NCBI RefSeq assembly: GCF_003205835.1
Contig: NZ_CP029773.1
Span: 900,501-964,500 of the forward strand
Direction of reading: 5' to 3'
DNA: 64,000 nucleotides
Origin: Stenotrophomonas maltophilia
GTDB taxonomy: Bacteria > Pseudomonadota > Gammaproteobacteria > Xanthomonadales > Xanthomonadaceae
The notes under the pieces are model-generated. The model made no database searches. It had not been told where the DNA came from and was given only the letters and a program-made list of their open reading frames with translations. The translations under genes were made by a program, and so were the position numbers. Positions within the stretch are counted from its first letter, which is position 1. Every line of letters starts with the position of its first letter. Positions 35,776-64,000 of the stretch are shown here, one piece after another.

Positions 35776-35866
35776 GGAGAGGTGGCAGAGTGGTTGAATG
35801 TACCTGACTCGAAATCAGGCAGGCGTTTATAGCGCCTCGGGGGTTCGAATCCCCCCCTCTCCGCCA
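35776..35866 (+). tRNA. tRNA-Ser (anticodon CGA)
   Basis: 91 nt class II tRNA with long variable arm and encoded CCA. Acceptor GGAGAGG/CCTCTCC; loop CTCGAAA gives CGA for TCG codons. This intact gene is distinct from the tRNA-Ser 3' fragment at 54174. Confidence 0.96.
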
Positions 35867-35870
35867 GATT

Positions 35871-35908
35871 AAAGAAAAAGGGCTGCCGAAAGGCAGCCCT
35901 TTTTCTTT
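35871..35908 (+). terminator. Terminator after tRNA-Ser
   Basis: AAAGAAAAAGGGCTGCC, loop GAAA, then the perfect complement ending TTTTTCTTT. Confidence 0.93.
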
Positions 35909-36019
35909 ATCTGGCGTGGGACGCGCCGCGCGTTGCGCGCCGCCCCACACGTTGCTGCGCAACCTGTGGGCCCCTCCCTTTGCCGGCCTCTCCCCGCCCC
36001 TGTCGGGGCAGGTGCATCA

Positions 36020-36087
36020 GTAGATCCACGCCATGCGTGGATGCTGTTCCTGCCGAGCTGAACCATCCACGCATGGCGTGGATCTAC
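36020..36087. repeat. Facing pair of SMAG-type palindromes
   Basis: GTAGATCCACGCCATGCGTGG on the plus strand (36020-36042) and the same element on the minus strand (36064-36087), just upstream of the DUF6165 gene. Confidence 0.82.
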
Positions 36088-40371: not shown

Positions 40372-40727
40372 ATGCATTTAGTTGAGCGGGGAATGGATTC
40401 CCCGCGTCCTGCAGGTATATGCATTTTCGGCAAAACCATTTTGTCCGCCCGTTTTATTTGACGCACGTCATGAAAATAACGAGCGTGATTCACATGCCGC
40501 TGGCGCCATCGGTCGCACAGTGCCGCCATTCGTCATGCGAAACCGGGGAGTTTTCGCCTTGACGGACACGCTGGCGCACCTTTTCCACGGGCGTCGCGTG
40601 AAGATGTGAAGATTTTCAGGAGTTAATGCCGCCAGGCCTTGTTTCCGTATCGGGAGCCGGGATGGGCCGCATCGTCTTCAAAAAACCTGCCCGCAGTGCC
40701 ATCCGGTCTTTTCATGGAGATTCACCG
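40372..40727 (+). other. Intergenic leader of the autotransporter gene
   Basis: 356 bases without a supported gene. A 9-bp perfect hairpin GCGGGGAAT-GG-ATTCCCCGC at 40386-40405 probably ends gdx. The rest is less GC-rich and should hold the autotransporter promoter, but no clear -35/-10 pair stands out. An in-frame ATG at 40626 would only add a non-signal-like leader. Confidence 0.6.
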
Positions 40728-46700: not shown

Positions 46701-49700
46701 TACACCGGTGGTACCACCATCAACAACGGCACGCTGGCGATCGGCGCCGGTGGCAGCCTGGCGTCGACCGGCGCGGTGAACCTGGCAGGTGCCGGTACCC
46801 TCGATATCTCCGCGGGCAACCAGGCCATCGGTTCGCTGGCCGGCGTGGTCGGCAGCACGGTGGCACTCGGTGGCAGCACGCTGACCCTGGGCGGTACGGT
46901 GGACAGCAGCTTCAACGGTGCGATCAGCGGCAACGGCGGCCTGATCAAGAACGGCGCCGGCGTGCAGACGCTCAATGGCGCCAGTACCTTCAGTGGTGGC
47001 GTAACGCTCAATGCCGGTGGCCTGGTGGTCGGCAACAATGCTGCACTGGGCACCGGCGCGGTAACGGTGGGGGGCAATGCCACGCTCGATTCGAACACCG
47101 CGGTGACGCTGGCCAACAACTTCATCCTCAACAACGGGTTGACTGTACTCGGCAGCAACAACCTCACCCTCAACGGCAGCCTGAGTGGCACCGGCAGCTT
47201 GACCAAGGAGGGGGCCGCAACGCTGACCTTGAACGGCGTCAACACCTATACCGGTGGCACCAACATCAACGCCGGCACGTTGGCATTGGGCGCGGGCGCG
47301 AGCCTGCACGCCAGCGGCGTCGTCAACCTGGCTTCGGGGGCGACCTTCGACCTGTCGGCGGGCAGCGGCACGCAGCAGTTCGGCACCCTGATCGGCAACG
47401 GTACGGTGAACCTGGGCGCCAACACGCTGACGATCGGTGATGCCAGCAACGGCACGTTCAGTGGTTCGGTGGCCGGCTCCGGCGGCCTGGTCAAGGAAGG
47501 ATCGGGGACCCAGACGCTGACCGGCACCAACACGTTCACCGGGGGTACCACCATCAATGCCGGTACGCTGGCGATCGGTGCAGGCGGCAGCCTGGCGGCA
47601 ACCGGCGCGGTGAACCTGGCCAATGCCGGTACCGCCTTCGACATCAGCGCGGGCGGCGCGCAGACGATCGGCTCACTGGAGGGCGTGGCCGGCTCGGCCG
47701 TGGCGCTGGGCACCAGCACGCTCACCCTCGGCGGCGTCGGCAACACGACGTTCGCCGGCACCATCGGGGGGACCGGTGGCCTGGTGAAGAACGGTGCAGG
47801 TGTGCAGACCCTGAGTGGCAGCAATACCTTCAGCGGCGGCGTGGCACTCAACGCCGGTGGCCTTGCCCTGGGCGACAACGCTGCACTGGGCACCGGCACG
47901 CTGACCGTGGGCGGCGACGCCAGCCTGGACGCCACCACCGCGCTGACGCTGGCCAACACCGTGCAGTTGAGCAGCGGCACGCTGACCCTGGCGGGCAGCA
48001 ATCCGCTGACGTTGAATGGTGCAATCAGCGGTGCCGGCGGCCTGCTCAAGGACGGTCCGGCGACGGTTAGCCTGGGCGGTGCCAGCACGTATACCGGCAC
48101 CACCACCATCAACAGCGGCACATTGGCGGTGGCGGCCGGTGGCAGCCTGTCCGCTGCCAGCACGGTCAACCTGACCGGTGCCAGTACGCTGGATATCAGC
48201 GCAGGTGGCAGCCAGAGCATCGGCGGCCTGGCCGGTGTGACCGGATCCAGCGTGGTGCTGGGCGGTGCAACCCTGACCACCGGCGGCAACAATGGCAACA
48301 CCGTCTTCGGCGGCGTGCTCAGTGGCACCGGCGGCCTGGTGCAGAGCGGTACCGGCACGCTGACCCTGAGCGGCGACAACGTCTATACCGGCGGCACCAC
48401 CATCAACGGTGGCAGCACGCTGCAGATCGGCAACGGTGGCAGCACCGGTTCGGTGCTGGGCGACATCACCAACAACGGCAGCCTGGTCTACAACCTCGGC
48501 ACCACGGCAACCGTGGGCGGCGTGGTCAGTGGCAGCGGTGGCCTGACCCAGGCCGGCAGCGGCACGCTGGTGCTGACCGGCAACAACACCTATACCGGCG
48601 GCACCACCATCAATGCCGGCGGTACGCTGCAGATCGGCAATGGCGGTGCGACCGGTGCGATCGTTGGCGACATCACCAACAATGGCGCGCTGGTATCCAG
48701 CGTGGCCGGCAGCACCACGCTGGGTGGCACCATCAGCGGCAGCGGTGGCCTGACCCAGGCCGGCGCCGGCACGCTGACCCTGACCGGCAACAACACCTAT
48801 ACCGGCGGCACCACCATCAACGCCGGCGGCACGCTGCAGGTCGGCAATGGCGGCGCCACCGGTGCCATCACCGGCAACGTCGCCAACAACGGCAGCCTGG
48901 TCTTCGACGTGGCGGGCAACACCACTGTCGGTGGCGCGATCAGTGGCAGTGGTGGCCTGACCCAGGCGGGCAGCGGCGTGCTGACCCTGGTCGGCAACAA
49001 CAGCTACACCGGCGGTACCACCATCAATGCCGGCGGCACGCTGCAGGTCGGCAACGGCGGGGCAACCGGCGCCATCGCCGGCGACATCACCAACAATGGT
49101 GCGTTGATTTCCAACGTGGCCGGCAACACCGCGCTGGGCGGCACCATCAGCGGCACTGGCGGCCTGACCCAGGCCGGTAGCGGTACGCTGCTGCTGACCG
49201 GCACCAACACCTATACCGGCGGTACCACCATCAATGCCGGCGGCACGCTGCAGCTGGGCAACGGCGGTGCGACGGGCTCGATCGTTGGCGATGTCACCAA
49301 CAATGGCACGTTGCTGTCCAACGTGGCCGGCAACACCACGCTGGGCGGCACCATCAGCGGCAGTGGCGGCCTGACCCAGGCCGGCAGCGGCACGCTGACC
49401 GTGACCGGCAACAACACCTATACCGGCCCGACCACCATCAACGCCGGCGGTACCCTGCAGGTCGGCAATGGCGGCGCCACCGGTGCGATCGGCGGCAGTG
49501 TGACCAACAACGGCAGCCTGGTGTTCAACGTGGGTGGCAACACCACCGTCGGCGGCGCCATCAGTGGCAGCGGCGGCCTGACCCAGGCCGGCAGCGGCAC
49601 GCTGATCCTGGGCGGCAACAACACCTACACCGGCGGCACCACCATCAACACCGGCGGCACGCTGCAGGTCGGCAACGGCGGCGCGAGCGGATCGATCGCC

Positions 49701-52729: not shown

Positions 52730-53836
52730 TCAGGCTGAAATGCCCGCCAACACCGCATACATCACCACGAAGCTCACCAGGAACAGATAGACGCCGCCGA
52801 TGGCGAGGTAGCGCAGCACCGTCAGTGCCTTGTTGTCGCCGTACACGCGTTGCTGCATCCACAGCAGGTAGACCGGAACCGCCAACCACAGCAGTGCATA
52901 CAGCCATTGGCTGGCGGCGGCGAAGGCGGGAGATGCGAGCGCGCTGTTGATGCCCGCGACGAGAAAGGTTGCCAGCAGCACCATCATCAGCCAGCAATGG
53001 CTGTACAGCGCCACCACCAGATGTTCCAGATAGCCCATTGGCCGCGGGACGTAGGCGATGCGCAGCACCAGCGCGAACACCGGCATCAGGAAGAACAGGG
53101 CACCCGGCAGTGCAGTCAGGATCGCCTGCATGTACAGGTCGGTCTTGCCGCCCATGCGCTGGATGTTGGCGTTGCCGTTCTGCAGGCGCTTGTTGAGCCA
53201 GTTGTTGGCGAACTGTGGCCAGCCGTTGAGGACGATGGGATTGCTGTTCGCGTCCCACGGCTTGCCGTTGACGGTGTGGCTGAAGAAGGTGCCGGGCTCG
53301 ATTGCGGTGGCGTCCTTGCGGGTGCCGGTGAGCTCGGCCCTGCGCTGTGCTGCCGCCGCGTTCACCGCAGCCCTGGCCATCGCGAAGCCGGCGTTGCCGG
53401 TGGCGGGTGAGCTGGCCTGCTGTTGGTCGATCATCATCAGCTGTTGCGTGCGTGCGGCTTCGACCTGTTCAACCGTCGTGGCCTTGGCGTACAGCGAATC
53501 GCCGCCGCCCATGCGGATGTCGTCGACGTGCACGAACAGCTTGCCGATGAAGAACGTAAACAGGGTGAGGATGACGAACAGCCGCAAGGGCTGCACGTAT
53601 CCGACCCGGCGGCCCTTGAGGTAGTTCTGCGTGATGCGGCCGGGCACCCAGAGATCGCGCAGCGTGCGGAAGATGCGCCCATCCAGATGCCAGAACGATT
53701 CGAACACTTCCTCGATGGCGTGGCCCACGTGCTTGAGCGGGTTGTGCGCCGATTGCCCGCAGCGATGGCAGTAGTGGCCCTGCAGGGCGGTGTTGCAGTT
53801 CTCGCAGTCGGCGTGAGCGCTGTCGGTCGAGCTCAT
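52730..53836 (-). CDS. DUF3667-family zinc-ribbon membrane protein
   Basis: 368 residues from ATG 53836. An N-terminal zinc ribbon uses Cys11, Cys14, Cys23 and Cys26 (CENC...CHRCG). It is followed by the DUF3667 core HLDGRIFRTLRDLWVPGRITQNYLKGRRVGYVQPLRLFVILTL, cited here in two parts: the HLDG segment and the VQPLRLFV membrane segment. Five membrane helices lie in the C-terminal half. Function unknown. Confidence 0.82.
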   Translation of the reverse strand: MSSTDSAHADCENCNTALQGHYCHRCGQSAHNPLKHVGHAIEEVFESFWHLDGRIFRTLRDLWVPGRITQNYLKGRRVGYVQPLRLFVILTLFTFFIGKLFVHVDDIRMGGGDSLYAKATTVEQVEAARTQQLMMIDQQQASSPATGNAGFAMARAAVNAAAAQRRAELTGTRKDATAIEPGTFFSHTVNGKPWDANSNPIVLNGWPQFANNWLNKRLQNGNANIQRMGGKTDLYMQAILTALPGALFFLMPVFALVLRIAYVPRPMGYLEHLVVALYSHCWLMMVLLATFLVAGINSALASPAFAAASQWLYALLWLAVPVYLLWMQQRVYGDNKALTVLRYLAIGGVYLFLVSFVVMYAVLAGISA

Positions 53837-53941: not shown

Positions 53942-53965
53942 CATCCCCGCGTGGCGTGGGTCTAC
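53942..53965 (-). repeat. SMAG-type palindrome
   Basis: Minus strand GTAGACCCACGCCACGCGGGG, the last repeat of the family before the accessory region. Confidence 0.75.
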
Positions 53966-54119
53966 TGATCGGTCTGCGACAGCGTCGAAGGGGGGATTGT
54001 CGGGCGCATCCATGCACCCGATCCCGGCGCGCGTTGCACCCCGGGATCCGCCTGCGGCGGTCCGGTTCTGCTCCTGCAGAACCGTCGAACCCCGGCGGGG
54101 CTTCTCACCACCCATCCCA

Positions 54120-54180
54120 TCCGCCAGACAAACGCAAAAGGGCCACCCTACGGGCGGCCCTTTTGCGTTTGTCTGGCGGA
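54120..54180. terminator. 25-bp perfect inverted repeat, probable tRNA-Ser terminator
   Basis: TCCGCCAGACAAACGCAAAA plus GGGCC pairs perfectly with its complement around an 11-base loop. On the minus strand it directly follows the tRNA-Ser 3' fragment, so it is most simply the terminator of a former tRNA-Ser gene at this site. Confidence 0.75.
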
Positions 54181-54191
54181 GAGAGGGGGAT
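54174..54191 (-). other. tRNA-Ser 3'-end fragment, candidate island attachment site
   Basis: The minus strand reads ATCCCCCTCTCTCCGCCA, the T-arm 3' strand, acceptor 3' strand, discriminator G and CCA of a serine tRNA. The remaining tRNA body is absent; unrelated sequence replaces it to the right. Integrases that use tRNA 3' ends leave exactly such a fragment at the far end of an island. The intact tRNA would lie beyond position 64000. Confidence 0.7.
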
Positions 54192-54239
54192 CCAGTTGAG
54201 ACCGACCCAACCCCTTGAACCGCTTGGCATTCACAAATC

Positions 54240-54278
54240 GGGAGTGTGCCCTGTTTTGTGCCCCGGGCATTGTAGCCG
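54240..54278 (+). repeat. 39-bp direct repeat, left copy
   Basis: GGGAGTGTGCCCTGTTTTGT... ending CATTGTAGCCG. It matches 56134-56172 at 36 of 39 positions, in the same orientation, and the flanks differ. The pair brackets the first mini-Rhs locus. Confidence 0.85.
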
Positions 54279-54443
54279 TTCGCTCTGCCGGATGGCACCT
54301 TGAGTTCTGTGTCCTACGGCGGCAGTGAATCTTTGAGGGCGTCCAGGTCGGACGGGCTTGTCGAGGTGCGCAGGGAACTCTGATAACGGCCGTGCCATCA
54401 GTGGTCCAGCGATACCTGACCAGCCCATTCCAGTGCTATCAAT

Positions 54444-54485
54444 GCAAAGCCTTGCTGGAAGGCTCTTTCAGGGAGTGGAAGGATG
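54444..54485 (+). promoter_or_regulatory. Conserved leader of mini-Rhs locus 1
   Basis: GCAA[A/G]GCCTTGCTGGAAGGC and the following CTCTTTCAGGGA[G/T]TGGAAGGATG recur upstream of locus 2 (63449-63490, minus) with two mismatches. It contains the hairpin GCCTT-GCTGG-AAGGC and ends in the shared start codon with a GGAG-like ribosome site. Confidence 0.75.
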
Positions 54486-55444
54486 CGCAGGTTTGGAGCG
54501 GCAGGTGGGGGGCTTACCCACGTCAGGGAATGGAAGAAGTATTTTCGGCAGCTGACGGCCCTAGGTGCCTGGCTTTGCTGTGTGCTGTTGGTGGGGCTGT
54601 CCATCGTGCCGCCCGTAAGCGCGCAGACCGTCACTTACATTCATACCGATGCGCTTGGTTCTGTTGTTGCAGAGACCGATGCCAATGGCAAGGTGATCAA
54701 GCGCTATGACTATGAGCCCTATGGGGCGGTGGTCGGTGGCCACGTCACGGATGGGCCTGGATACACAGGACATGTGAGTTATGCGGCTACCGGGCTAAGT
54801 TACATGCAGCAGCGGTATATGGATCCGCAGTTGGGTGTCTTCCTGTCCGTAGACCCGGTGACGGCGTATGAGCAGCCTGTGGGGCAGTTCAATCGGTATC
54901 GGTATGCGAACGGAAATCCATAAAAATTCAAAGATCCGGACGGTCGCATCGTCGAAACCGTGTGGGATGTTGCGAACATAACCTTGGGGGCAACCAGCGC
55001 CTACTCAAACTTTAGCGAAGGCAATATTGGTGCAGGTGTCGTTGATTCGATTGGCGTGGCCGTGGATTCTCTGGCGGCTGCTGTCCCATTTGTGCCAGGA
55101 GGCGCCGGGGCAACGATTAAAGCCGTCAGGATGGCCGAGAACGCGGCGCAAGGCGCTCGGGCTGAAAAGGTTGTAGCCCAGCGCTTGGTGAAAAGGTGGC
55201 AGGGCAGCGCGTTACACTGGAAGCATCTACCGGTCAACGAAGCGTGGCGGACATCGTGACGAAGGATAAGGGCGTTGTGGAAGTAAAGAGCGGTGGTGCT
55301 CAACTAAGTTCGGGGCAAAAGGCCATCAAGGCTGATGTCGATGCAGGTCGTCCGGTGACGCCTAGGGGAGCGAACGCGGAAAAAGCGGGGCTTGAGCCAG
55401 GAAAGCCGACGCAAATGAAGTGCTATGACGTGAAGCGTTGCTGA
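54483..55444 (+). pseudogene. Broken secreted mini-Rhs toxin, PD-(D/E)xK-like tip
   Basis: Codons 1-146 encode a signal peptide (cleavage near VSAQT) and then a bare RHS core: TVTYIHTDALGS, YMQQRYMDPQLG, FNRYRYANGNP. There TAA at 54921 replaces the tyrosine codon normal in NPYxFxDPDG. The same frame continues KFKDPDGR, a Gly/Ala linker VPFVPGGAGATIKAVR, and at about 55186 one A is missing from a run, shifting into the frame of VAGQRVTLEASTGQRSVADI and VVEVKSGGAQLSSGQ. The D...ExK pattern there resembles a restriction-type nuclease fold. Both lesions look like recent point events on an otherwise intact gene. Confidence 0.8.
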
Positions 55445-56049
55445 TGAGTGCTACTGGACATTGCGATGCGGCCTTCAGGAAGGCTGTTCTACTCAAGTGC
55501 TATGAGGCGCTTGAGGTGGAAGGATTTACGCGCTATCGAATGCAGGATGTGGACTGGCCGATGGAACATGGCTTCCATTGCTGGGTTGGGCTCAATACTG
55601 GCTTGGAAAGAGAGTATCTCGATATCAATCCATTCGTCGGCGTTCATGTGGTGCCGATCATGAAACTTTATACCTCCCTTGAGGGGCGGAAATACAGCCG
55701 AAGCACATCCACTTATGCGGTTCACATGGGAGAGCTGGCACCCAAGGAGCAGGCTTTTCGTTTTACTCGGGAAACTGATGTTGCAGCGCAAGCGGCTCGG
55801 CTGGCGCGTTTATATTCGGATGCCGGCTTGTCGTATGCGTTGTCCATCGGCACCTATGAGCGGCTACTTCCCTTGTTGCAAGAACGCGTGCCGATGCTCG
55901 GTGCCTATCCGGAACGGGTGGCATCTTGCCTGTATCTGATGGGCCGTAAGGAAGAAGCGAGGTTGTTCGCTGAAGAGTTCTTGCAGGATCATCGAGATTA
56001 CTTTGAAGGCTTTGCAGTTCCGTTCTTGAGGATTTTGAACGGCCAATGA
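55444..56049 (+). CDS. Candidate immunity protein of mini-Rhs locus 1
   Basis: 201 residues. ATG 55444 overlaps the toxin stop as TGATG, so translation is coupled to the toxin frame. The N-terminal half (FRKAVLLKCYEALEVEGFTR, HCWVGLNTG, YLDINPFVGVHVVPIM) and helical C-terminal half (LARLYSDAGLSYALSIGTYE, GRKEEARLFAEEFLQDHR) match no family I recognise. The composition is AT-richer than the core genome. Immunity is inferred from position only; here it would persist as an orphan beside a dead toxin. Confidence 0.65.
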   Translation: MSATGHCDAAFRKAVLLKCYEALEVEGFTRYRMQDVDWPMEHGFHCWVGLNTGLEREYLDINPFVGVHVVPIMKLYTSLEGRKYSRSTSTYAVHMGELAPKEQAFRFTRETDVAAQAARLARLYSDAGLSYALSIGTYERLLPLLQERVPMLGAYPERVASCLYLMGRKEEARLFAEEFLQDHRDYFEGFAVPFLRILNGQ

Positions 56050-56133
56050 CAGCCAGGTCGGGTCGGGCAAACGCGGGCCGCACGCCTGCAAGTCCGACAG
56101 AGCGCAATTTGAGGTGCACTGGAGTGAAGCGCC

Positions 56134-56172
56134 GGGGGTGTGCCCTGTATTGTGCCCCGGACATTGTAGCCG
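56134..56172 (+). repeat. 39-bp direct repeat, right copy
   Basis: Same sequence as 54240-54278 with three substitutions, 84 bases after the immunity stop. Repeat-to-repeat distance is 1,894 bp. Confidence 0.85.
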
Positions 56173-56210
56173 GTGGCTGCGTTGGGCAGCTACTGCAACG
56201 GTTGGAAAGC

Positions 56211-56236
56211 GAGGCCCCTGCGAATGCAGGGGCCTC
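56211..56236. terminator. Perfect 11-bp hairpin
   Basis: GAGGCCCCTGC, loop GAAT, GCAGGGGCCTC. No T-run; it may end the immunity transcript. Confidence 0.55.
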
Positions 56237-56330
56237 AGTATGTCGGCGGGAAAAACAGCTCTTTCTAAGCCACCCGTAGGGCGGTGAACACCCGGCTGAC
56301 GCTCCCAACTTAAAACAGCACAACGCGTTG

Positions 56331-56519
56331 TCAACCCATTGATCGGCGGGCAAGGCTGCCGCGCATCTTCCCCGTTTTCTTACCTTCCTTAGCTGCATTG
56401 GCGGATTTGCGCTTTTTCTTCATGGTTCGGCGGAGGCTTCTGCCACTTGTGTCGTAACCGGCGGCTTTCAGCAGCTTGTCGGCAGCGCGTTCCACTGCAA
56501 AGCGAGTGAGTTTGTCCAT
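56331..56519 (-). CDS. Small basic hypothetical protein
   Basis: 62 residues, strongly basic (MDKLTRFAVERAADKLLKAA, then KKKRKSANAAKEGKKTGK). The ribosome site GGGG directly abuts the start and is weak. The composition suggests a nucleic-acid-binding peptide, but it could be non-coding. Confidence 0.35.
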   Translation of the reverse strand: MDKLTRFAVERAADKLLKAAGYDTSGRSLRRTMKKKRKSANAAKEGKKTGKMRGSLARRSMG

Positions 56520-57459
56520 CCCCAGTGTTTAACGCGTTTTCGCCGGTGCGCAAGCCCGGCGGCGCTCCTGCGCCGCCTCTTGCCTTTCCCCTCCAAGGGT
56601 AGCCGAGCGGTAGCGAGGCCAGAAGGGCGGCGGAGCCGCCCGTGGTTTTGCTGTTGAACCCAGGCGCAGCCCGCCCAGCGACGAAGCCCGTGCGCGTGTT
56701 TTCCTGGTAGTGTCCCCTCGGCCGCGAAAGGCGCCAACGGCGGTCTTGAGCAACGGGGGGGCGCTGGCAGCGCGCCCCCCTGCGACCCCCCGGCTGCCGA
56801 GGACCGTCGCCGGAGGCGTCGGCCTCGGCCTTGGGTTCGCCTGTTCAAAACGCTTGGCGTTTTGGGTGGGCAACCCGCATTGCGGGTCGCAGGGGCACGA
56901 GCCCCCCACCCGTGAGGGCCAGGAACAACGAGATGGTCGGCCCGCGGTTGAAGTGCCTTGCGGCTGCAGGTGTGCCGGCGAGGAACGACCCCGTAACGGC
57001 CCAGCGTGGTTCACAGCGTCGCCGCTGCTGCCCCCGGTCCACGCCGCCCACGGTCTGCTGTAGGCGTCTCTCTCGGGCTGCGGCTGAGCCAGCGTTCGCC
57101 TACGGTCTCACGTAGACCCAAGTTACGCGGGTGCTTTACTCCTTGCCCGCAGTCCTCGGTTGCCGCGCGTTTGCCCAATGATGGGCTGACCAGCAGAACC
57201 GTTTGATGGCTACGAACCACCCCCGCCTAGTGCTGATCACGCAGGCCGTCCAAGCGGGAGCGAAGGGAGGGCGAGAGGGAGGGCTTGCCAGATGGCCGAG
57301 GCTTGTTACGCTGACCTCAAGGGGTCATTGCCTGGGCTTGTGTAGCTGCCTTCTACCTTGCTCGCCTCCGCGCCGGTCAAGCTCGGGGGCCATGAATTCA
57401 AACTATGGCACCCTTGGCCGTTGTCAAGCCAAGGGTGTCTTTGTATCCAAGGAGGACGC
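56520..57459. other. Gene-poor GC-rich region with many small hairpins
   Basis: 940 bases. Open frames here have translated compositions typical of GC-rich non-coding DNA (Arg, Pro, Gly, Ala runs) and none has a convincing start. Visible structures include AAAACGC-TTGG-GCGTTTT (about 56856), ACCCGCATTGCGGGT (about 56874) and GGGGGCGCTGGCAGCGCGCCCCC (about 56757). The 3' 90 bases, before the protease, are AT-richer and contain its ribosome site. Confidence 0.5.
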
Positions 57460-58347
57460 GTGAACCCAGCAACCTACATCTCTATGTCGACTGTCCGGCT
57501 ACTGTGTGGGAGCAACGGTGTGTCAGTGTCGGTGGGCACCGGATTCTTCTATCTAGTCGAAATTGATACGCCGGAAGGGAAAGGGAACTTCCCCCTAGTT
57601 TTCACGAATAAGCATGTCGTAAACGGGCACAACGAGATCCGTATAACTGTGACAACCCGTAGTTCATCGGACGATGTTAGCGAGCTGGTGGTTGCGCCGG
57701 GCGATGTGCACCGGACATTCCTCATTCCAAACTGCCAGCAACGAATAGTGTTCCACCCAGATGCAGGCGTCGATCTGTGTGCATTTTATGTCGGTGATGT
57801 CTTCGAGGCCGTACAGAATAGTGGGTTATTCATCAGGAATACATTTCTGCACAAGAATTTCCTTGTTCCGCATGATGAAAGGAAAAACGTTCGCGCAATC
57901 GAGCCCATTATGATGATTGGCTACCCTAACGGACTTTGGGATGAGCATAACAATCGCCCGCTAGCGAGGCGAGGAAGTACGGCGTCACATCCATTTTTGA
58001 AATGGAATGGAAGGCAAGAGTTTGTTATTGATGCGGCCTGCTTTCCAGGATCGAGCGGGTCGCCCGTTTTTCTTTTCGAAGACATAATGTTCAGAACAAA
58101 AGACAATTCATACACGCCTGGGACGCGCGCTCAGTTGCTCGGCGTATTGGCCTCAGGACCGCTCTTTACCAACGAGGGCACACTCGTTCAACGGGACATC
58201 CCTACGGCGACGGCAATAGTTCCAGTGGTTCCGTCGATGATGAATTTGGGTAACGTAGTGCATGCGGATGCACTCCAGAAAGTTATTGATTTGGCTTCCG
58301 CGGCCTCAGTGGAAGGTCGGACCTTTGCGCGGGCCATCAGTGTTTAG
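57460..58347 (+). CDS. Trypsin-like (S1-fold) serine protease, intracellular, accessory
   Basis: 295 residues from GTG 57460, with AAGGAGG 4 bases upstream. The chymotrypsin-fold triad is readable: His in FTNKHVVNGH, Asp in GVDLCAFYVGD and Ser in CFPGSSGSPVFLF. There is no signal peptide or propeptide, so it acts in the cytoplasm unless the start is wrong. Base composition is clearly AT-richer than the chromosome, with codons rare elsewhere in the window. Lone trypsin-like domains of this kind occur in conflict and defence loci, but no partner domain is fused here. Confidence 0.82.
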   Translation: MNPATYISMSTVRLLCGSNGVSVSVGTGFFYLVEIDTPEGKGNFPLVFTNKHVVNGHNEIRITVTTRSSSDDVSELVVAPGDVHRTFLIPNCQQRIVFHPDAGVDLCAFYVGDVFEAVQNSGLFIRNTFLHKNFLVPHDERKNVRAIEPIMMIGYPNGLWDEHNNRPLARRGSTASHPFLKWNGRQEFVIDAACFPGSSGSPVFLFEDIMFRTKDNSYTPGTRAQLLGVLASGPLFTNEGTLVQRDIPTATAIVPVVPSMMNLGNVVHADALQKVIDLASAASVEGRTFARAISV

Positions 58348-58747
58348 GGTTAGTTCTTCCCGCCCTCGGAATTCTGGTCGAGCGAACAAAATGGTAGGCG
58401 CACCCACCTAAAACAGGAAAAACCACGTGAACGGGCAAAAGCAACAGCCCTACCACCGCTGCCAGGCCCCGGACTTGCGTGGGATTGGGAAGCACATCGG
58501 CAAAGCCAGCGACTAAAAACACCAGCACTTGGGCCGCGATGACCGCAGCCCAAGTCCAAAGGAAGCCCCTCCAGAAGCCCCCGCGGGGGAGGCCCTGTTC
58601 AGCGTAGTGGGGGAAGGGCTGGCGGTTGATCCACGTCCGTCGTCGGTTGGCCCGATGGGTGATCCAGGAAAGGAAGGCCAGCACCAGCCAGGTGCCAATG
58701 CCTCCCAAGACCGCCAGCCACCCAAATGAGCTTCCGTTCTGGAGCAT
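58337..58747 (-). CDS. Hypothetical small membrane protein
   Basis: 136 residues from ATG 58747, or 143 from TTG 58768. Three hydrophobic helices (WLAVLGGIGTWLVLAFLSWI, WTWAAVIAAQVLVFLVAGF, GLAAVVGLLLLPVHVVFPVL). Its 3' end overlaps the protease 3' end by 11 bases in convergent orientation. No family recognised. Confidence 0.6.
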   Translation of the reverse strand: MLQNGSSFGWLAVLGGIGTWLVLAFLSWITHRANRRRTWINRQPFPHYAEQGLPRGGFWRGFLWTWAAVIAAQVLVFLVAGFADVLPNPTQVRGLAAVVGLLLLPVHVVFPVLGGCAYHFVRSTRIPRAGRTNPKH

Positions 58748-58840
58748 CTCCAAGCCGCCACCGAGCAAGACGAGACCTGATCTGGCTCCCCGTCAGCGGA
58801 CGCCAAGAAGCGATACTTTGATCGCACTTGGAGGTCCTTT

Positions 58841-59134
58841 ATGTCCCGTATTACCCGCCGTAGCTATACCGATGAGTTCAAGCACCAGGCCGTGGAGTTG
58901 GCCGAATCGCTTGGCCCAGCCGCAGCGGCCCGCCAGCTGGAAATGTCCGTCAAGACGCTGGCAAATTGGATTGACGCGGTCCGTGCTGGGCGCTCGTTGA
59001 CGTCTGAGGCTCGCAGGCCGGCCACTGACCTGGAAAGCGAGATCAGCCGCCTTCGGGCCGAGAACGCCAATCTGAGGATGGAGCGAGAAATCCTAAAAAA
59101 AGCGGCGGCGTTCTTTGCCAAAGAGTCCAAGTGA
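58841..59134 (+). CDS. IS3-family transposase OrfA
   Basis: 97 residues: helix-turn-helix RRSYTDEFKHQAVELAESLG and LEMSVKTLANWIDA, then a leucine-zipper segment LESEISRLRAENANLRMERE and ILKKAAAFFAKES. This is standard IS3 OrfA. CTAAAAAAAG at 59092-59102 offers an A7 slippery run for -1 frameshifting into orfB. A ribosome site GGAGG lies 9 bases before the start. Confidence 0.93.
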   Translation: MSRITRRSYTDEFKHQAVELAESLGPAAAARQLEMSVKTLANWIDAVRAGRSLTSEARRPATDLESEISRLRAENANLRMEREILKKAAAFFAKESK

Positions 59135-59240
59135 GGTACGCCTTCGTCGCCCGTCATAGGACTCGTTACCCGACTCGGGTGCTGTGTCGTGTTCTCGGCG
59201 TATCGGTCTCTGGTTTCCATGATTATCTGCACCGACAGTC
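59131..59240 (+). pseudogene. IS3-family OrfB, N-terminal fragment
   Basis: In the -1 frame from GTG 59131: RYAFVARHRTRYPTRVLC, then GVSVSGFHDYLHRQSARA, the OrfB N-terminal helix-turn-helix. It then runs into DUF927 sequence and a stop. No integrase core remains, so the IS cannot move itself. Confidence 0.8.
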
Positions 59241-60134
59241 CGCCCGAGCCGCGCCAACCGAGCCGGTGAGGCCCGTGCAGCAGCACGCTGGCGGGTGCTG
59301 ATCCTCTCAGCGGGCGAGGTCGGATTGGCGCAGCACATGGCCGAGGTCGGCAAGCAGGCACGGGCGGGGCAGTCCGTGCGCCTGGCCGACGTACCGGCCG
59401 AGGCCGAGGGCGGGCATGGTGTGTTTGAGCGCCTGCACGATGCCAGCGACGGTGCCGCGCTGTCGGCCCTGCTCAAGGACGCCGCCGCGCGCACCTATGG
59501 AGCACCGTGGCCGCTGTGGATGGGTTACCTCACCCAGCAGGACAGCCCGACGCTGACCGCCCAGCTGCGCGAATCCACGGACCGATTCCTGGCCACCTAC
59601 GTACCCGAAGATGCCTCCGGCGAGGTGCGCCGCGTGGCTGAGCGCTTTGCTGTTGTCGCCTTTGCCGGGGAGTTGGCCAGCAGCTGCCGCCATCGCATCA
59701 CCGGCTGGCCCAAGGGTGAGGCCACACGCGGTGTCGCCGCGTGCTTCCAGGCTTGGCTGCAACGTCGGGGCGGTTCCGGTAGTGCCGACACCGATGCGCT
59801 GCTGTCGCGCGTGCGTGCGTTCTTTGAAGCGCACGGCGAAAGCCGTCTGGAGCCGTTGCGCTACGGCCAGGAAGCGCCACCGGTCCGTGATCGGGCCGGC
59901 TTCCGGCGTTTCGATGAGGTGGGGGTCACCGAGTACCTGGTGCTGCCCGAGGCGCTGAAACGGGAGTTGTGTGCAGGCTTCGATCCTCGCCAGGCCACCC
60001 GTGAGCTGATCGCAGCGGGTTGGCTCAAACCCAGCACCGATGGCAAGTCCTCCCAATCAGTGCGTGTCCCAAGCCTCGGCTCCATGCGCCTGTATGTCTT
60101 TGACAGCCGCAAGGTTCATGACAGCGCGCTGTAG
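59241..60134 (+). pseudogene. DUF927-domain helicase/primase-like gene, 5' part lost
   Basis: From about 59241 the frame reads SRANRAGEARAAARWRVLIL, then SAGEVGLAQHMAEVGKQARA, the internal sensor region of DUF927 phage/plasmid helicases. It runs intact to TAA-type stop at 60134 through EVGVTEYLVLPEALKREL and a C-terminal wing GWLKPSTDGKS. The N-terminal half with the Walker motifs is missing at the IS3 junction. GTG 59295 could start a 279-residue product, but it would lack ATPase motifs. Confidence 0.82.
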
Positions 60135-60155
60135 GTCGCGCCGTCTTTCCCATAG

Positions 60156-60178
60156 CTCGCCGACACAGTGTCGGCGAG
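60156..60178. promoter_or_regulatory. 23-bp perfect palindrome
   Basis: CTCGCCGACAC, central A, GTGTCGGCGAG, between the DUF927 remnant and the next gene. It can be a terminator without T-run or an operator site. Confidence 0.5.
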
Positions 60179-60207
60179 TCCCCCAATCGTTTTAACGGAG
60201 ATTCAAC

Positions 60208-60936
60208 ATGAGCGACATCCAGACCATCACCACCACTACCTCCGAACCGGCTATTCAACCCGTCGACGGGGCCGAGGTTGCGGCGGTGTCGGAGAATAGG
60301 CGGCGGCTGAACGAGCTGGCGCAGCAGTTGGCCAGCGTGATGCAGCGCAAGCGCGCCCTGGTGGGCAAGGTCGATACGATGCAGCGCGCCAAACAGGCTG
60401 CACAGGGTGATGCCGCCGCTGCCCGTCAGCAGTGGGGGGCGAAGCTGCGCGAGAGCGATGGCACGCTGACCCGTGACATTCAGAAGCTACGCGCTAACGA
60501 GCGCTCGGCACTGTCTCTGGCCGAGGAGTATGAGGCGATGCAGGGCGAGATTGCGGCCGAGCTGCCGCGCCTGGAGCTGGAATTGGCCGAGGTGGCGGGC
60601 TACTGTCTGAACGCAAGAAGCACCGTCACTTGGGAATTGGCCGATCAGGCCTACGAGCAGTTGCTGGCACAGGCCGGGGATAGCCTGGCCTTCGCATTTG
60701 CGTTGTTCTCGAGAGCGACAAACTCCGACGATGCAGATGCACTGGCCAGCCGATTCTTTGGTCGCCTCGGCAATGCGGTGCGCCGTCGCCTGGACGATGC
60801 CGCAGTGACGGAACAGGTGACGGAAGTGTTGGCGCTGCCGTCGATGGACCTGAGCGCGGTGGATATGCAGCTGGTGCGTAGCCCGATTCGTCTTTCACAG
60901 TTGCGAGAGAAGATCAGTGCTGGGGAGGCAGCGTGA
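60208..60936 (+). CDS. Coiled-coil phage/satellite protein
   Basis: 242 residues; GGAG 8 bases before ATG. A low-complexity head (ITTTTSEPAIQPVDGAE) is followed by a long alpha-helical coiled coil (about 28-130) and a compact C-terminal part with ALPSMDLSAVDMQLVRSPIR. The stop overlaps the portal start (TGATG), so the two are translated together. The helical layout is loosely like capsid-decoration or polarity-suppression proteins of P4-type satellites, but I cannot show homology. Confidence 0.6.
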   Translation: MSDIQTITTTTSEPAIQPVDGAEVAAVSENRRRLNELAQQLASVMQRKRALVGKVDTMQRAKQAAQGDAAAARQQWGAKLRESDGTLTRDIQKLRANERSALSLAEEYEAMQGEIAAELPRLELELAEVAGYCLNARSTVTWELADQAYEQLLAQAGDSLAFAFALFSRATNSDDADALASRFFGRLGNAVRRRLDDAAVTEQVTEVLALPSMDLSAVDMQLVRSPIRLSQLREKISAGEAA

Positions 60937-61973
60937 TGCATTCCCCTGCCGATGCTGCTATCGGTGAGGTCGTGCCCGCGCGTAGCGTGGGCACTGCCGG
61001 AGCTGTCACAAGCTTTTCCTTTGGCGATCCAACGCCCGTGTTGGACTCGCGCGGGTTGTTCGACTACCTGGAATGCTGGCGCAACGGTCGCTATTACGAG
61101 CCGCCGATCACCCTCAGTGGTCTGTCGCGCACAACGCGTTCCAATCCGTTCCTGCACAGTGGTTTGATCTTCAAGCGCAACATGCTGGTGCGCACCTTTG
61201 TGCCGCATCGACTGCTGGACCGCACCGCGTTCTCGCAGTTGGCGCTGGATTACCTGGTCTTCGGCATGGCATACCTGGGGCGGCAAGTCTCGCACTCCGG
61301 GCGGCTGTTGCAGCTACACCCATTGATGGCGCAGTACATGCGTCGTGGTGTGCAACCTGGTGAGTTCTTTCAGGTCCGAGCTGGCAGGGCCGAACACGAG
61401 TTTGCCCCCGGTTCGGTGCACCAGCTCCGTGAGGCCGATACCGATCAGGAAATCTACGGCATGCCGGAGTGGCTGGCCGTCGTGCAGTCGGCGTTGCTTA
61501 ATGAATCGGCGACGTTGTTCCGCCGCAGGTACTACACCAACGGTTCGCATGCGGGCTTTATTCTTTACATGACCGACCCGCAACCGGAGGGCATGGACGT
61601 GGACGCCTTGCGTGAAGCCCTGCGAGACTCGCGCGGGCCGGGCAATTTCCGCAACCTGTTCGTGCATTCGCCCAATGGCAAGAAGGATGGGTTGCAGCTG
61701 ATCCCGATCAGCGAAGTGGCCGCCAAGGATGAATTCACCGGTATCAAGCGCGTGACTCGCGATGACATTCTGGCCGCGCTGCGCATACCGCCGCAGCTGC
61801 TCGGCATCGTGCCTCAGAATGCTGGCGGCTTCGGCTCGATTCGGGATGCGGCTACCGTGTGGGCGTCGATGGAACTGGCACCACTGCAATCGCGGCTGGC
61901 CATGGTCAACGAATGGATCGGGGAACAGGTCATCACTTTTGCCCCCTTCGAAATAGAACGTTCAGCGAACTGA
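60936..61973 (+). CDS. Phage portal protein (P2 gpQ/PBSX type)
   Basis: 345 residues from ATG 60936 (GTG 60933 also possible), with GGGGAGG upstream. Family landmarks: FSFGDPTPVLD, YYEPPITLSGLSRTTRSNPF, LLNESATLFRRRYYTNGSHA, GFILYMTDPQ, KRVTRDDILAALRIPPQLLG and GGFGSIRDAATVW. Portals form the dodecameric DNA gate of the phage head. No terminase or capsid gene follows, so the phage or satellite is incomplete here. A hairpin terminator follows. Confidence 0.92.
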   Translation: MHSPADAAIGEVVPARSVGTAGAVTSFSFGDPTPVLDSRGLFDYLECWRNGRYYEPPITLSGLSRTTRSNPFLHSGLIFKRNMLVRTFVPHRLLDRTAFSQLALDYLVFGMAYLGRQVSHSGRLLQLHPLMAQYMRRGVQPGEFFQVRAGRAEHEFAPGSVHQLREADTDQEIYGMPEWLAVVQSALLNESATLFRRRYYTNGSHAGFILYMTDPQPEGMDVDALREALRDSRGPGNFRNLFVHSPNGKKDGLQLIPISEVAAKDEFTGIKRVTRDDILAALRIPPQLLGIVPQNAGGFGSIRDAATVWASMELAPLQSRLAMVNEWIGEQVITFAPFEIERSAN

Positions 61974-62023
61974 GTGCCTATCCCTGAAAGGGCGAGGTCA
62001 AGCTACTGCTTCAGTCGAAACAG

Positions 62024-62056
62024 GGGCGACAGGGACAAGGTCAATACCTGTCGCCC
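62024..62056. terminator. Hairpin between convergent portal and immunity genes
   Basis: GGGCGACAGG and CCTGTCGCCC around a 13-base loop, 50 bases after the portal stop and 43 after the immunity stop on the other strand. Confidence 0.65.
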
Positions 62057-62099
62057 TTGGGGGGCGATCCCAGTGTGAGTAGCCGCGGCTGGATCGAAC

Positions 62100-62432
62100 T
62101 TAATTCCAGATCACGATGGTTCCATCTGGACTATTCAACTGCATCGCCTCTGGACCAGAGTAGCCGTCGTCACTTAAGTCGACCGTGAGTGAGGCCCCGC
62201 TAGAAAACTGCGCAACCATTGTCTGGCGATCGAACCGGCAATCCTGCAGCACCAAGCTCAGCGTTGAGGGCGGGGGGGGCTCCGCAATGCCATCGCAGTG
62301 AAGGCTGAAGGAGTTGTAGATATGCAGTTCCCAGCCATCGTCCGTACCGATGGTGGCCATGCCGTCTTCCATTCGCAGTTTCACATTTTTCCCGATCAAT
62401 GGCCGGAGGGTTTCCGCCTGGTGGTCGATCAT
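62100..62432 (-). CDS. Candidate immunity protein of mini-Rhs locus 2
   Basis: 110 residues, starting 8 bases after the toxin stop on the same strand. It is small, acidic and beta-rich (KLRMEDGMATIGTDDGWELH, TLSLVLQDCRFDRQTMVAQF, PDGTIVIWN), with no signal peptide or membrane helix. Size, acidity and position are those of cytoplasmic immunity proteins of polymorphic toxins; the sequence alone does not name a family I can be sure of. Confidence 0.7.
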   Translation of the reverse strand: MIDHQAETLRPLIGKNVKLRMEDGMATIGTDDGWELHIYNSFSLHCDGIAEPPPPSTLSLVLQDCRFDRQTMVAQFSSGASLTVDLSDDGYSGPEAMQLNSPDGTIVIWN

Positions 62433-62440
62433 GTTCAGGC

Positions 62441-63451
62441 CTATCTGACTGGGAAGTGAGACTTCGAATTAGGGAGCGTTTTCCCGGAGAGCGGATCTAC
62501 GCCTTGCTTTCCAGCATTCTCGTACTTGATATAGCCAGCTGGATATCCAGGACTGTTTCCCCTGGGAGGGGTTGGGTCCATCATCCGCATGGTGGCTACT
62601 TGCCCATTACTGCCTCCGGCACCCCCAGTAAATGCGACGCCGGTCTGTTTTCCTGCGGGGTTGATGACCGGAGTTGGTCCGCTCGCCCCTGTGGGCACCG
62701 GAAATGCTGTCCCGTTCGACGAGATGACGTAGCTCGGGCCAGAAGGTGTCGTCGGGGCAGCGGCAGGAGTTGGCGCAGAGGGCGCTGCTGGTGCTGGTGC
62801 TGGCAGGGCCAGTGGTTGCGCCGAATTAATGGAGCCAGATATTGCTGATGCAGCAGCAGGCCCAACAACTGGCGTCGCGCGCACAATCGCTGTTGTTACG
62901 GCAAGTGCTGCGGGGCCGAACGTATCATATGCCGAGGGTGTGTTCGCCACCGAGTCGGCATGTCTTTCCGCCGCCCGTTCCTGGCGACCATCAGGATCGA
63001 CGAACCTATAGGGATTGCCCGCAGCGTAACGATAGCGGTTGAAGGCGGAGCCCGGTTTGTCGTTTGGTGAGACGGGATCTACAGAGAGAAAGAGTCCTAG
63101 TTGGGGGTCGTAGTAGCGCTGCTGCATGTAGCTCAGCCCCGTGGCAGCATCGCTCACGTGCCCCGTGTAGCCAGGCCCATCCGTAACCGGTCCGTCCACG
63201 ACGCCCCCGTAGGGCTCGTAGTCATACCGTTTGATCACGTTGCCACTTTCATCGGTTTCGGCAACGACCGAGCCAAGTGCATCAGTGTGGATGTAGGTGA
63301 CCGTCTGAGCAGTTGCGATTGGCGGCAGTGCCAAGCCCACCAACAGCAGCCAGCAGAGCCAGACGCCCAAGGCGCTCAGCTTGCCGAAATGCGTTCTCAT
63401 CCCCTTTCGGCGGGCCGACGCGCGGCACGCAATTCTCTCAAGCCGTTCCAT
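62441..63451 (-). CDS. Secreted mini-Rhs toxin, locus 2 (intact)
   Basis: 336 residues from ATG 63451, the start at the conserved leader; MRTHFG at 63400 is an alternative. A signal peptide (KLSALGVWLCWLLLVGLALP, cleavage near ATAQT) leads at once into the RHS core: TVTYIHTDALGSVVAETDES, KRYDYEPYG, YMQQRYYDPQLGLFLSVDP, NRYRYAAGNPYRFVDPDGR. An Ala/Pro-rich linker (about 200-255) follows, then a C-terminal tip with VATMRMMDPTPP, GYPAGYIKYEN and TLPNSKSHFPVR, likely the toxin. There is no PAAR domain, YD-repeat cocoon or transmembrane anchor. Tip activity is unknown. Confidence 0.85.
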   Translation of the reverse strand: MERLERIACRASARRKGMRTHFGKLSALGVWLCWLLLVGLALPPIATAQTVTYIHTDALGSVVAETDESGNVIKRYDYEPYGGVVDGPVTDGPGYTGHVSDAATGLSYMQQRYYDPQLGLFLSVDPVSPNDKPGSAFNRYRYAAGNPYRFVDPDGRQERAAERHADSVANTPSAYDTFGPAALAVTTAIVRATPVVGPAAASAISGSINSAQPLALPAPAPAAPSAPTPAAAPTTPSGPSYVISSNGTAFPVPTGASGPTPVINPAGKQTGVAFTGGAGGSNGQVATMRMMDPTPPRGNSPGYPAGYIKYENAGKQGVDPLSGKTLPNSKSHFPVR

Positions 63452-63490
63452 CCTTCCAATCCCTGAAAGAGCCTTCCAGCAAGGCCTTGC
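63449..63490 (-). promoter_or_regulatory. Conserved leader of mini-Rhs locus 2
   Basis: Minus-strand counterpart of 54444-54485 with two mismatches, including the GCCTT/AAGGC hairpin and the start codon. Confidence 0.75.
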
Positions 63491-63496
63491 CTTCAT

Positions 63497-64000
63497 ATCA
63501 CAGTCCCCGTCGGCGTGACGACCGAAGTCGGCGCCAAGGGTGGGTGGGCAGGTCTTCAGGGTTCGTCGCGGCGGGTAGGCTGTAACACCGGTAACACTTG
63601 TGCTACACCTTGGTCGAGATCGGTGGTGGTGGCATAACCATTTGATTTAAATGGAATGTTCGGCTGGCGTAACACCTGTCACACTTGTAACACTGAAAAA
63701 TATCAATGTCGGAAACTGTTGCTGGAATGTGGGTGTCAATCTGACGGCAGAGATGGCGGGAAAGCGCTGTGCCACAAGGCATTCCAAGGAAATCGTTGGA
63801 AAATCTGCTGGTGCGATGCCTGATACACGTTTTCTGTTACAGACCCTCAATTCATAGCGTTCCTGAAACATTGTAAGTAGTGGGTGTTTTCTTCTTGGAC
63901 ACTATTGGATGCCTCGTTTTCGCCACTACCTGTCCACTGCAAATCTGGCCTCCATCTGGCCGCTCAGTGCTCCGTCAAATACCCCCTTTGGTGCAGGGAT
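63497..64000. other. Region upstream of mini-Rhs locus 2, no confident gene
   Basis: About 500 bases, AT-richer toward the right edge. It has repeats of the GTAACACTTGT / GTAACACC type at about 63589-63694. An open frame at 63651-63857 translates to GVTPVTLVTLKNINVGNCC, a composition I associate with linker regions of phage primase/helicase genes, so it may be a decayed relic. The frame on the other strand (63647-63871) is equally open; neither has a good ribosome site. Confidence 0.4.

Follow-up and report, generated by a model that had tools for sequence, protein, structure and literature searches.

An island at tRNA-Ser(GGA) of Stenotrophomonas maltophilia displaces a conserved, tRNA-linked hairpin element

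Islands and satellites that carry tyrosine integrases and occupy the 3′ ends of tRNA genes are a known kind of mobile DNA, as is their tandem accretion at such genes. P4-like satellites carry an integrase, a full alpha primase, Psu and capsid-size genes. RtT RNA, a product of the DNA behind a tRNA gene, is released from the tRNA transcript.

Hairpins exposing ANGGA are described as the preferred target of CsrA (PMC7366521), and ACARGGAUGU as the site in a high-affinity RsmA ligand (PMC3937308), according to the available parts of these papers. The accessible text of a further study describes the Escherichia coli RNAs rrA, rrB and rrF, which lie behind rRNA operons between dual terminators, carry two GGA loops and bind CsrA in vitro (PMC8144298). 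For Xanthomonas campestris, the part of the report at hand describes RsmU, an RsmA-sequestering RNA from an mRNA 3′ end, and states that the CsrB/RsmB, CsrC and RsmV–Z families were not found by BLAST (PMC7694677). Islands near tRNA-Ser(gct) and others are mentioned in an excerpt on an isolate of the S. maltophilia complex (PMC13310844). We found no description of the tRNA-Ser(GGA) hotspot in the open-licence literature, and no literature on tRNA-trailer elements of the kind reported below. The island described here is evidence of an integration hotspot, with defence cargo, at the tRNA-Ser(GGA) gene of Stenotrophomonas, and we consider the flank that it displaces more interesting than the island itself.

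A displaced tRNA-Ser(GGA) end and its empty site

The window analysed is a stretch of 64,000 nucleotides (C1:900501–964500) from the 4.89-Mb genome of S. maltophilia G000, which is a single contig (C1). At 54120–54191 the first-pass annotation had recognized one end of an integrated element, with the last 18 bases of a minus-strand serine tRNA, a terminator with a 25-bp stem, and no tRNA body. The following features lie at this junction.

52730..53836, minus strand: DUF3667 gene, the native far-side flank (Pfam PF12412, E 9.7e-15)
53995..54114, minus strand: conserved multi-hairpin, tRNA-trailer (RtT-like) element with two GGA loops (alignment A1, RNAalifold; model R1, 132.2 bits)
54111..54188, minus strand: long terminator-type hairpin, its far arm mirroring the tRNA-Ser 3′ end (z -11.45)
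54173..54191, minus strand: 3′ end of tRNA-Ser(GGA), the island's distal att copy (19 bases identical to the intact tRNA end)

Minus-strand bases 54191–54173 read ATCCCCCTCTCTCCGCCAG, the tRNA's last 18 bases plus one base after CCA; the tRNA end is thus as annotated, but counts 19 bases once the position past CCA is included. ARAGORN called no tRNA at 54173–54191. The tRNA body is indeed missing there, and the intact tRNA-Ser(GGA) lies 19.9 kb from the fragment, at C1:974538–974630 on the minus strand, adjoining an ORF that looks like the start of dnaX. The island therefore continues past position 64000, as had been proposed, and both genes expected beyond that point, an intact minus-strand tRNA-Ser and an integrase, are present. 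The 14-mer CCCTCTCTCCGCCA has three copies in the 4.89-Mb genome, every one of them at the tRNA-Ser(GGA) island locus; the reversed 14-mer, used as a control, has none in this genome and none across 91 genomes.

The terminator hairpin folds at -70.8 kcal/mol, compared with -31.0 ± 3.5 kcal/mol for shuffled sequences (z = -11.45; 0 of 200 as low). The annotated hairpin is therefore real, but its stem is predicted to be longer than 25 bp because it reaches into the end of the tRNA. Where the mirroring of the local isoacceptor by the far arm is best, it spans 16 bases (G005, G006 and G070), and at locus L172 the arm mirrors a CGA-type tRNA-Ser.

To one side of the junction stands the DUF3667 gene, whose 17 named relatives are all from Stenotrophomonas; the best of them, from S. 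maltophilia PC315 and an uncultured Stenotrophomonas, are 91% identical. When the two G000 flanks are joined, they align gap-free to G025 across the joint at 462, with 98.0% identity along 645 bases; they match G035 at 96.5% over 635 bases with one gap, and G065 at 95.0% over 646 bases with one gap. In these three genomes DUF3667, the terminator and the complete tRNA-Ser are contiguous, as anticipated for island-free strains, and the reproduction of the G025 empty site by the joined flanks confirms an island end at 54120–54191.

The end of the SMAG repeats had been read as a further sign of the junction. For one SMAG consensus this end is real: with up to 3 mismatches there are seven matches in the window, the last at 53942–53965, and none in L011, the stretch that holds the middle att copy described below. 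It fails as an island marker, because the 60 kb beyond the island (L012–L014) also lack copies, even with 4 mismatches allowed.

Also in the window, at 40626–51632, is a 3668-aa ORF of repeated sequence that looks autotransporter-like by eye. Its counterpart in G017, of 3667 aa, lies near tRNA-Ser (L141, 4179–15182); G017 has no DUF3667 match at E ≤ 1e-100, and DNA resembling the island's element A (see below) ends less than 0.5 kb from the 3667-aa ORF.

The displaced flank, a conserved structured element

Alignment A1 comprises 21 sequences, taken from sites that hold GGGTTCGAC and a recognizable end; the invariance of its two ends thus reflects how the sites were chosen. Five of 26 sequences had been dropped beforehand (G010, G052, G056 and G087 as another type, G011 as shorter), together with seven instances lacking a recognizable end. 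RNAalifold predicts four hairpins and a weaker first helix. Two-sided changes occur in 9 of 35 pairs, and the covariation score is 0.247, compared with 0.114 ± 0.009 for shuffles and at most 0.053 when the structure is slid along the alignment. Two of the five pair measures do not stand out: the nine pairs with two-sided change (7.1 in shuffles) were reached by 20 of 500 shuffles, and the 15 further pair types (16.9 in shuffles) by 499 of 500. We do not rely on a strand test that gave 30 GU and 1 AC cells, because two columns supply 27 of the 30 GU cells and it was on that strand that the structure had been selected. The covariation score of alignment A2 (0.389, compared with 0.120) leans toward the model, to which this alignment had been fitted.

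The covariance model R1 was scanned across the genus with fast filters at E ≤ 0.01. It matched in 55 of 91 genomes and left 36 without a match; in G000, 53995–54114 is the only one. Among 53 strong matches (at least 60 bits), placed by coordinates, ARAGORN and fragment scans, 51 stand behind serine tRNAs or displaced fragments, two are at contig edges and none lies elsewhere. By type, 27 are behind tRNA-Ser(GGA), five of them displaced by islands, including that of G000; 18 are behind tRNA-Ser(CGA) and three behind tRNA-Ser(UGA), and the last three follow tRNA-Ser ends that are displaced or decayed (L160, L164 and, across a masked run, L159). Weak matches at L166–L169, with 38.8–47.1 bits at best, had no tRNA in the stretch examined. 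The G000 unit body has no tRNA copy at its far end and sits behind the displaced tRNA end. At eight CGA loci with a far repeat, the repeat is without the GGA-type marker T, and the number of Cs varies. The 19 trailer units compared, with one mismatch allowed, are related in sequence, those of G082 and G088 in part. Serine-tRNA loci seem to swap trailer units with one another.

Several neighbouring arrangements were seen along the way. About 18 kb from the junction, at 35866–36050 (L134, L009), tRNA-Ser(CGA) has a second shared trailer unit, which occurs at tRNA-Ser(GGA) in other strains; in G025 an insertion, IS-like by eye, separates this second unit from tRNA-Ser(CGA). In G087 (L060, 1–3000), a 2.6-kb stretch with a DndB-like gene (PADLOC DndB, E 2.6e-10) lies between trailer units behind tRNA-Ser.

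To look beyond the genus, R1 was run at E ≤ 0.001 on 217 genomes taken from the family, of which 53 had a match (six of them from Stenotrophomonas), and on 274 taken from the class, of which 58 had one, counting G000. We examined 20 family stretches among the best 23 outside-genus matches (G228:C226 and G206:C40 were left out, and one more lies inside L196). In 17 of these 20 the match is directly behind a Ser, Glu or Gln tRNA, 16 at a spacing of 41–55 bases and one overlapping the tRNA end; the exceptions are L187 and L192, with the tRNA on the other side, and L196, without a tRNA. At class level, 15 of 19 loci hold a tRNA or tmRNA (L210, L211, L214 and L223 hold none). By coordinates, seven matches start 42–60 bases behind such a gene, tmRNA among them, and three more lie farther behind, two of these being second units of tandems. 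In L209, L215, L219, L220 and L225 the annotated tRNA does not precede the match on its own strand.

At eight loci (Ser, Glu, Gln and Arg), the far end reproduces 18 bases of the local tRNA's 3′ end exactly. Testing for far-end repeats gave a clear result in the family (8 of 20, control 1 of 60) but not in the class (6 of 19, control 7 of 56), where tandem units probably inflate the control. The element tends to have one half of a tRNA T-arm at its start (GGTTCGA) and the other at its end (ATCC). Both GTTCGA and ATC are present in 20 of 20 family and 12 of 19 class matches outside the genus; within the genus, these words were used for picking sequences.

The repeats at E. coli tyrTV are laid out in the same way: in L226, the last 19 bases of tyrV occur six times, two of them as tRNA ends, and Rfam places RtT four times. 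RF00391 has no match in the window or in six genus loci, and in three diverged Stenotrophomonas flanks it scores 28–34 bits (best 34.2), under the 45-bit cut-off. Conversely, R1 does not match E. coli tyrTV at E ≤ 0.001, and we therefore call the element RtT-like rather than RtT. We also rejected sX4 and RsmW as the identity of the Stenotrophomonas flanks, as their Rfam scores are below cut-off; RsmW reaches 25.1 bits in the window and 28.1 in one of the six loci (cut-off 52). One outside locus, L202, has sX4 above its cut-off. No known family of CsrA/RsmA-sequestering sRNAs matched the window or the six loci at its cut-off.

Judged by its loops, the displaced flank is a candidate CsrA/RsmA-binding tRNA-trailer RNA. 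GGA is kept in both loops in 21 of 21 genus sequences, and the stems covary. The last hairpin reads GCANGGATGC in 18 of the 21 and CCATGGATGG in two, and is one base shorter in one; by eye it fits ANGGA in 20 of 21, while the other loop mostly does not, reading CAGGA or similar. At least two GGA loops are found in all 20 family and all 19 class matches, a count that is biased by the model. The best genus match to ACARGGATGT is 8 of 10 bases, in 4 of 21 sequences. Outside the genus, the full 10 of 10 occurs in 4 of 20 family and 5 of 19 class matches, and in none of the dinucleotide shuffles (2000 and 1900, respectively). R1 does not contain ACA...TGT, and therefore the full word is not the model's choice, although GGA partly is.

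We tentatively raise a wider possibility, less likely than not, namely that these sequences are members of an uncatalogued RNA family, widespread in Gammaproteobacteria, that trails tRNA and tmRNA genes: terminator read-through RNAs whose GGA hairpins would sequester CsrA/RsmA and thereby link the regulator to stable-RNA transcription. RsmU and the ANGGA count led us to grade this sequestration reading slightly lower. An even chance goes to the alternative in which the element does nothing as an RNA: it would be a passive repeat of the RtT-like kind, or palindromic DNA, that arose as tRNA flanks were duplicated, and its GGA loops would reflect descent only. A passive repeat would accommodate the strong hairpin between tRNA and element, the 36 of 91 genus genomes without an R1 match, the related units without GGA loops in G010, G052 and G087 (and their absence from the predicted fold of E. 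coli RtT), and the fit of the last hairpin alone to ANGGA. R1 moreover selects for GGA, so that the 39 of 39 outside matches are partly circular. However, descent accounts less readily for GGA in both loops of all 21 sequences despite compensatory stem pairs, or for an exact ACARGGATGT in four family and five class matches outside the genus when the word is absent from the sequences that built the model.

If the CsrA/RsmA-binding reading is true, the element would be a new kind of RsmA antagonist in Xanthomonadaceae, beside RsmU, and the island would sever G000's only R1 copy from its tRNA promoter. The candidate, cheaply testable in this family, is tRNA-linked and has conserved GGA hairpins and, in some relatives, the high-affinity RsmA ligand sequence.

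Island architecture and use of the site

A third exact copy of the 14-mer, TGGCGGAGAGAGGG, lies at L011:10063–10076 (C1:965062–965075) and splits the 19.9-kb island; it shares 14 bases, compared with 19 at the distal copy. The features on its two sides are as follows.

54192..64000, onward to the middle att at C1:965062–965075: element A (the middle att being the third exact 14-bp copy)
54483..54923, plus strand: RHS-core fragment with an in-frame stop at its end (TIGR03696, E 1.9e-14)
57358..58347, plus strand: Trypsin_2 protein, PADLOC defence candidate PDC-S45 (E 6.3e-93)
58841..59134, plus strand: IS3-type orfA (PF01527, E 5e-13; NF033516 below cut-off)
59295..60134, plus strand: C-terminal part of a DNA primase (PHROG 1139, positions 652–891 of 895, E 1.1e-31)
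60208..60936, plus strand: Psu-like (polarity suppression) protein (PHROG 6165, E 3.2e-11)
60933..61973, plus strand: P2-type portal protein (TIGR01540, E 5.2e-61)
62441..63496 (L011:7942–8997), minus strand: second RHS-core ORF (TIGR03696, E 1.6e-20)
C1:965062–974538, wholly beyond the window: element B, between the middle att and the intact tRNA

Most likely, the island is two elements in tandem with the third att copy between them, and these very probably integrated successively at the 3′ end of tRNA-Ser(GGA) by site-specific recombination. At each integration, the tRNA would be rebuilt with an element-borne 3′ end and the older 3′ end moved outward. The final order would then be intact tRNA, B (9.5 kb), att copy, A (10.4 kb), original 19-bp end with the native terminator, hairpin element and DUF3667. 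The att copies, the intact tRNA, the empty site, the integrase position and the use of this site in other genomes are direct observations, from which we infer the order of events, the recombination chemistry and present mobility; the order of arrival of A and B is not proven.

Element B carries a tyrosine integrase (C1:965161–966528) with Arm-DNA-bind_3, Phage_int_M and Phage_integrase domains, which starts 85 bases from the middle att, just inside B's distal att. It also holds a large terminase, with no close phage relative (288 of 288 records under 60% identity), and a resolvase, whose match leaves the first 30 positions of the profile uncovered. Nearer the tRNA lies a predicted methyltransferase and restriction-enzyme pair (PADLOC MTase_II 6.3e-66, REase_II 2.3e-46), adjacent as in a type II restriction-modification system; the restriction enzyme has no PDB match. 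A relative of B in G051 has an integrase 97% identical, adjoining its own distal att, and a terminase segment 93% identical over 4.0 kb. Where B has the restriction pair, it carries NADAR, PRTase-CE and PDC-S13 proteins, and it has a primase where B has other DNA. With the core shared and the cargo different, B looks like a conserved core with swapped defence-type cargo. B's tRNA-side end recurs in G014, G051 and G052. In G052 (L139), a B-type remnant sits at a second tRNA 3′-end copy, with the tRNA's own terminator left in place. Several element classes have, by eye at their tRNA-side ends, a terminator-like hairpin of their own right after the rebuilt tRNA 3′ end.

By its gene matches, element A looks like decayed phage or satellite DNA, P4/P2-like debris. 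Its portal shares 77% identity with Q of Stenotrophomonas phage Smp131 over 90% of the length. None of the 10 ORFs tested is an integrase, and neither a comparison of 12 genomes nor the listed matches (9 of 16 in G000) showed one in A, which likely has none. A falls short of a P4-like satellite: it has a primase C-terminus and a Psu-like gene, but no integrase among those ORFs and matches. One end of A resembles one class of element and the other end another, and a 46-base stretch of the distal end is found again, at 89%, about 1.9 kb further in; such ends and recurrence suggest that A is itself probably composite, and it may be a fusion. The tRNA-side end of A recurs in G017 (L141) and G042 (L140), where relatives of A lie at tRNA-Ser in genomes without a DUF3667 match, which suggests deletions from the island into the chromosome. 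Elsewhere in G000, the 3′ flank of tRNA-Ser(UGA) at C1:3040524 (L010) resembles an element end by eye and may be occupied too, and C1:3016829–3016919, 23.7 kb from that tRNA, matches A's distal end at 77%.

It is improbable that the 19.9 kb are one single element, with a middle 14-bp copy that arose by chance or is an internal site that has decayed. The middle repeat is admittedly just 14 bp and no integrase was found in A, but the 14-mer is exact, its reversed control is absent from 91 genomes, and it stands 85 bases from the integrase start. A strong counter-argument is G051, which carries B's two ends and core, 12.7 kb, without A; in addition, an A-type tRNA-side end lies directly at tRNA-Ser in G017. 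Scarcely credible is a local tandem duplication of the tRNA 3′ flank with no island at all: a second exact 14-mer does follow the intact tRNA at 167–272 bp in 14 of 91 genomes, and a displaced copy in G090, with related sequence between, but the G000 copies are 19.9 kb apart with an integrase and phage genes between them, and the match of the joined flanks to the G025 empty site refutes it. Because such second 14-mers exist without an island, a tRNA fragment alone is insufficient proof of one, and the proof lies in the empty-site comparison.

Two successive integrations also agree with the use of this site in other genomes. A DUF3667 search at E ≤ 1e-100 was positive in 29 of 91 genomes, and in 15 of the 29 the gene lies beside tRNA-Ser on one contig. 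The spacing is 14–55 kb in six (G000, G066, G078, G084, G086 and G090) and 0.27–1.15 kb in nine; the remaining 14, with flanks on different contigs or far apart, are uninformative. Six integrases adjoin a distal att (that of B in G000, and those in G001, G051, G078 and, twice, G090). Among the 12 genomes compared, B-related integrases by the distal att are found in G001, G078 and G090 (two). The rule has an exception, because a second integrase match in G078 (C101:140414–140905) lies 5.3 kb from the distal att, inside the island, and the islands of G066, G084 and G086 have no integrase among the matches listed. We conclude that tRNA-Ser(GGA) is a defence-carrying integration hotspot in Stenotrophomonas.

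Comparison with known systems

The island is an ordinary member of the tRNA-3′-end islands. It has an intact tRNA with a direct repeat of its 3′ end, an integrase by the att of B, and an empty site. Like other islands of this kind, it shows a restored tRNA at one end, a short tRNA copy at the other, tandem arrangement and exchanged defence-type cargo. There is no fundamental difference; one element is decayed, and B has a terminase with no capsid gene among the ORFs tested.

The displaced element has GGA motifs in a putative structured RNA, like CsrB and RsmX/Y/Z/W, with a weak resemblance to RsmW, but each unit has only two conserved GGA loops. As described in the part of the report at hand, RsmU differs in being an mRNA 3′ end, whereas our element is a tRNA flank (PMC7694677). 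The layout resembles that of rrA, rrB and rrF, as far as the accessible text of that study describes it, and these RNAs are a precedent: a short putative RNA behind a stable-RNA gene and a first terminator, with two GGA loops (PMC8144298). Those RNAs are rRNA-linked and their binding was measured, whereas the Stenotrophomonas element is tRNA-linked and a candidate.

E. coli RtT (RF00391) lies directly behind tyrT/tyrV, and many relatives of the element likewise follow a tRNA directly, whereas in G000 the element stands behind a displaced tRNA end. RtT units close with the local tRNA's last 19 bases, and some units of the element's relatives have a copy of the local tRNA end there too; the G000 unit has none. 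By eye, both follow a common frame, GATGAGAA...GGTTCGAC...AATCC. They differ in that a strong hairpin precedes the Stenotrophomonas element and that it has two GGA loops, whereas the RtT unit has no GGA loop in its predicted fold. The element may link the E. coli RtT repeats to a much wider family.
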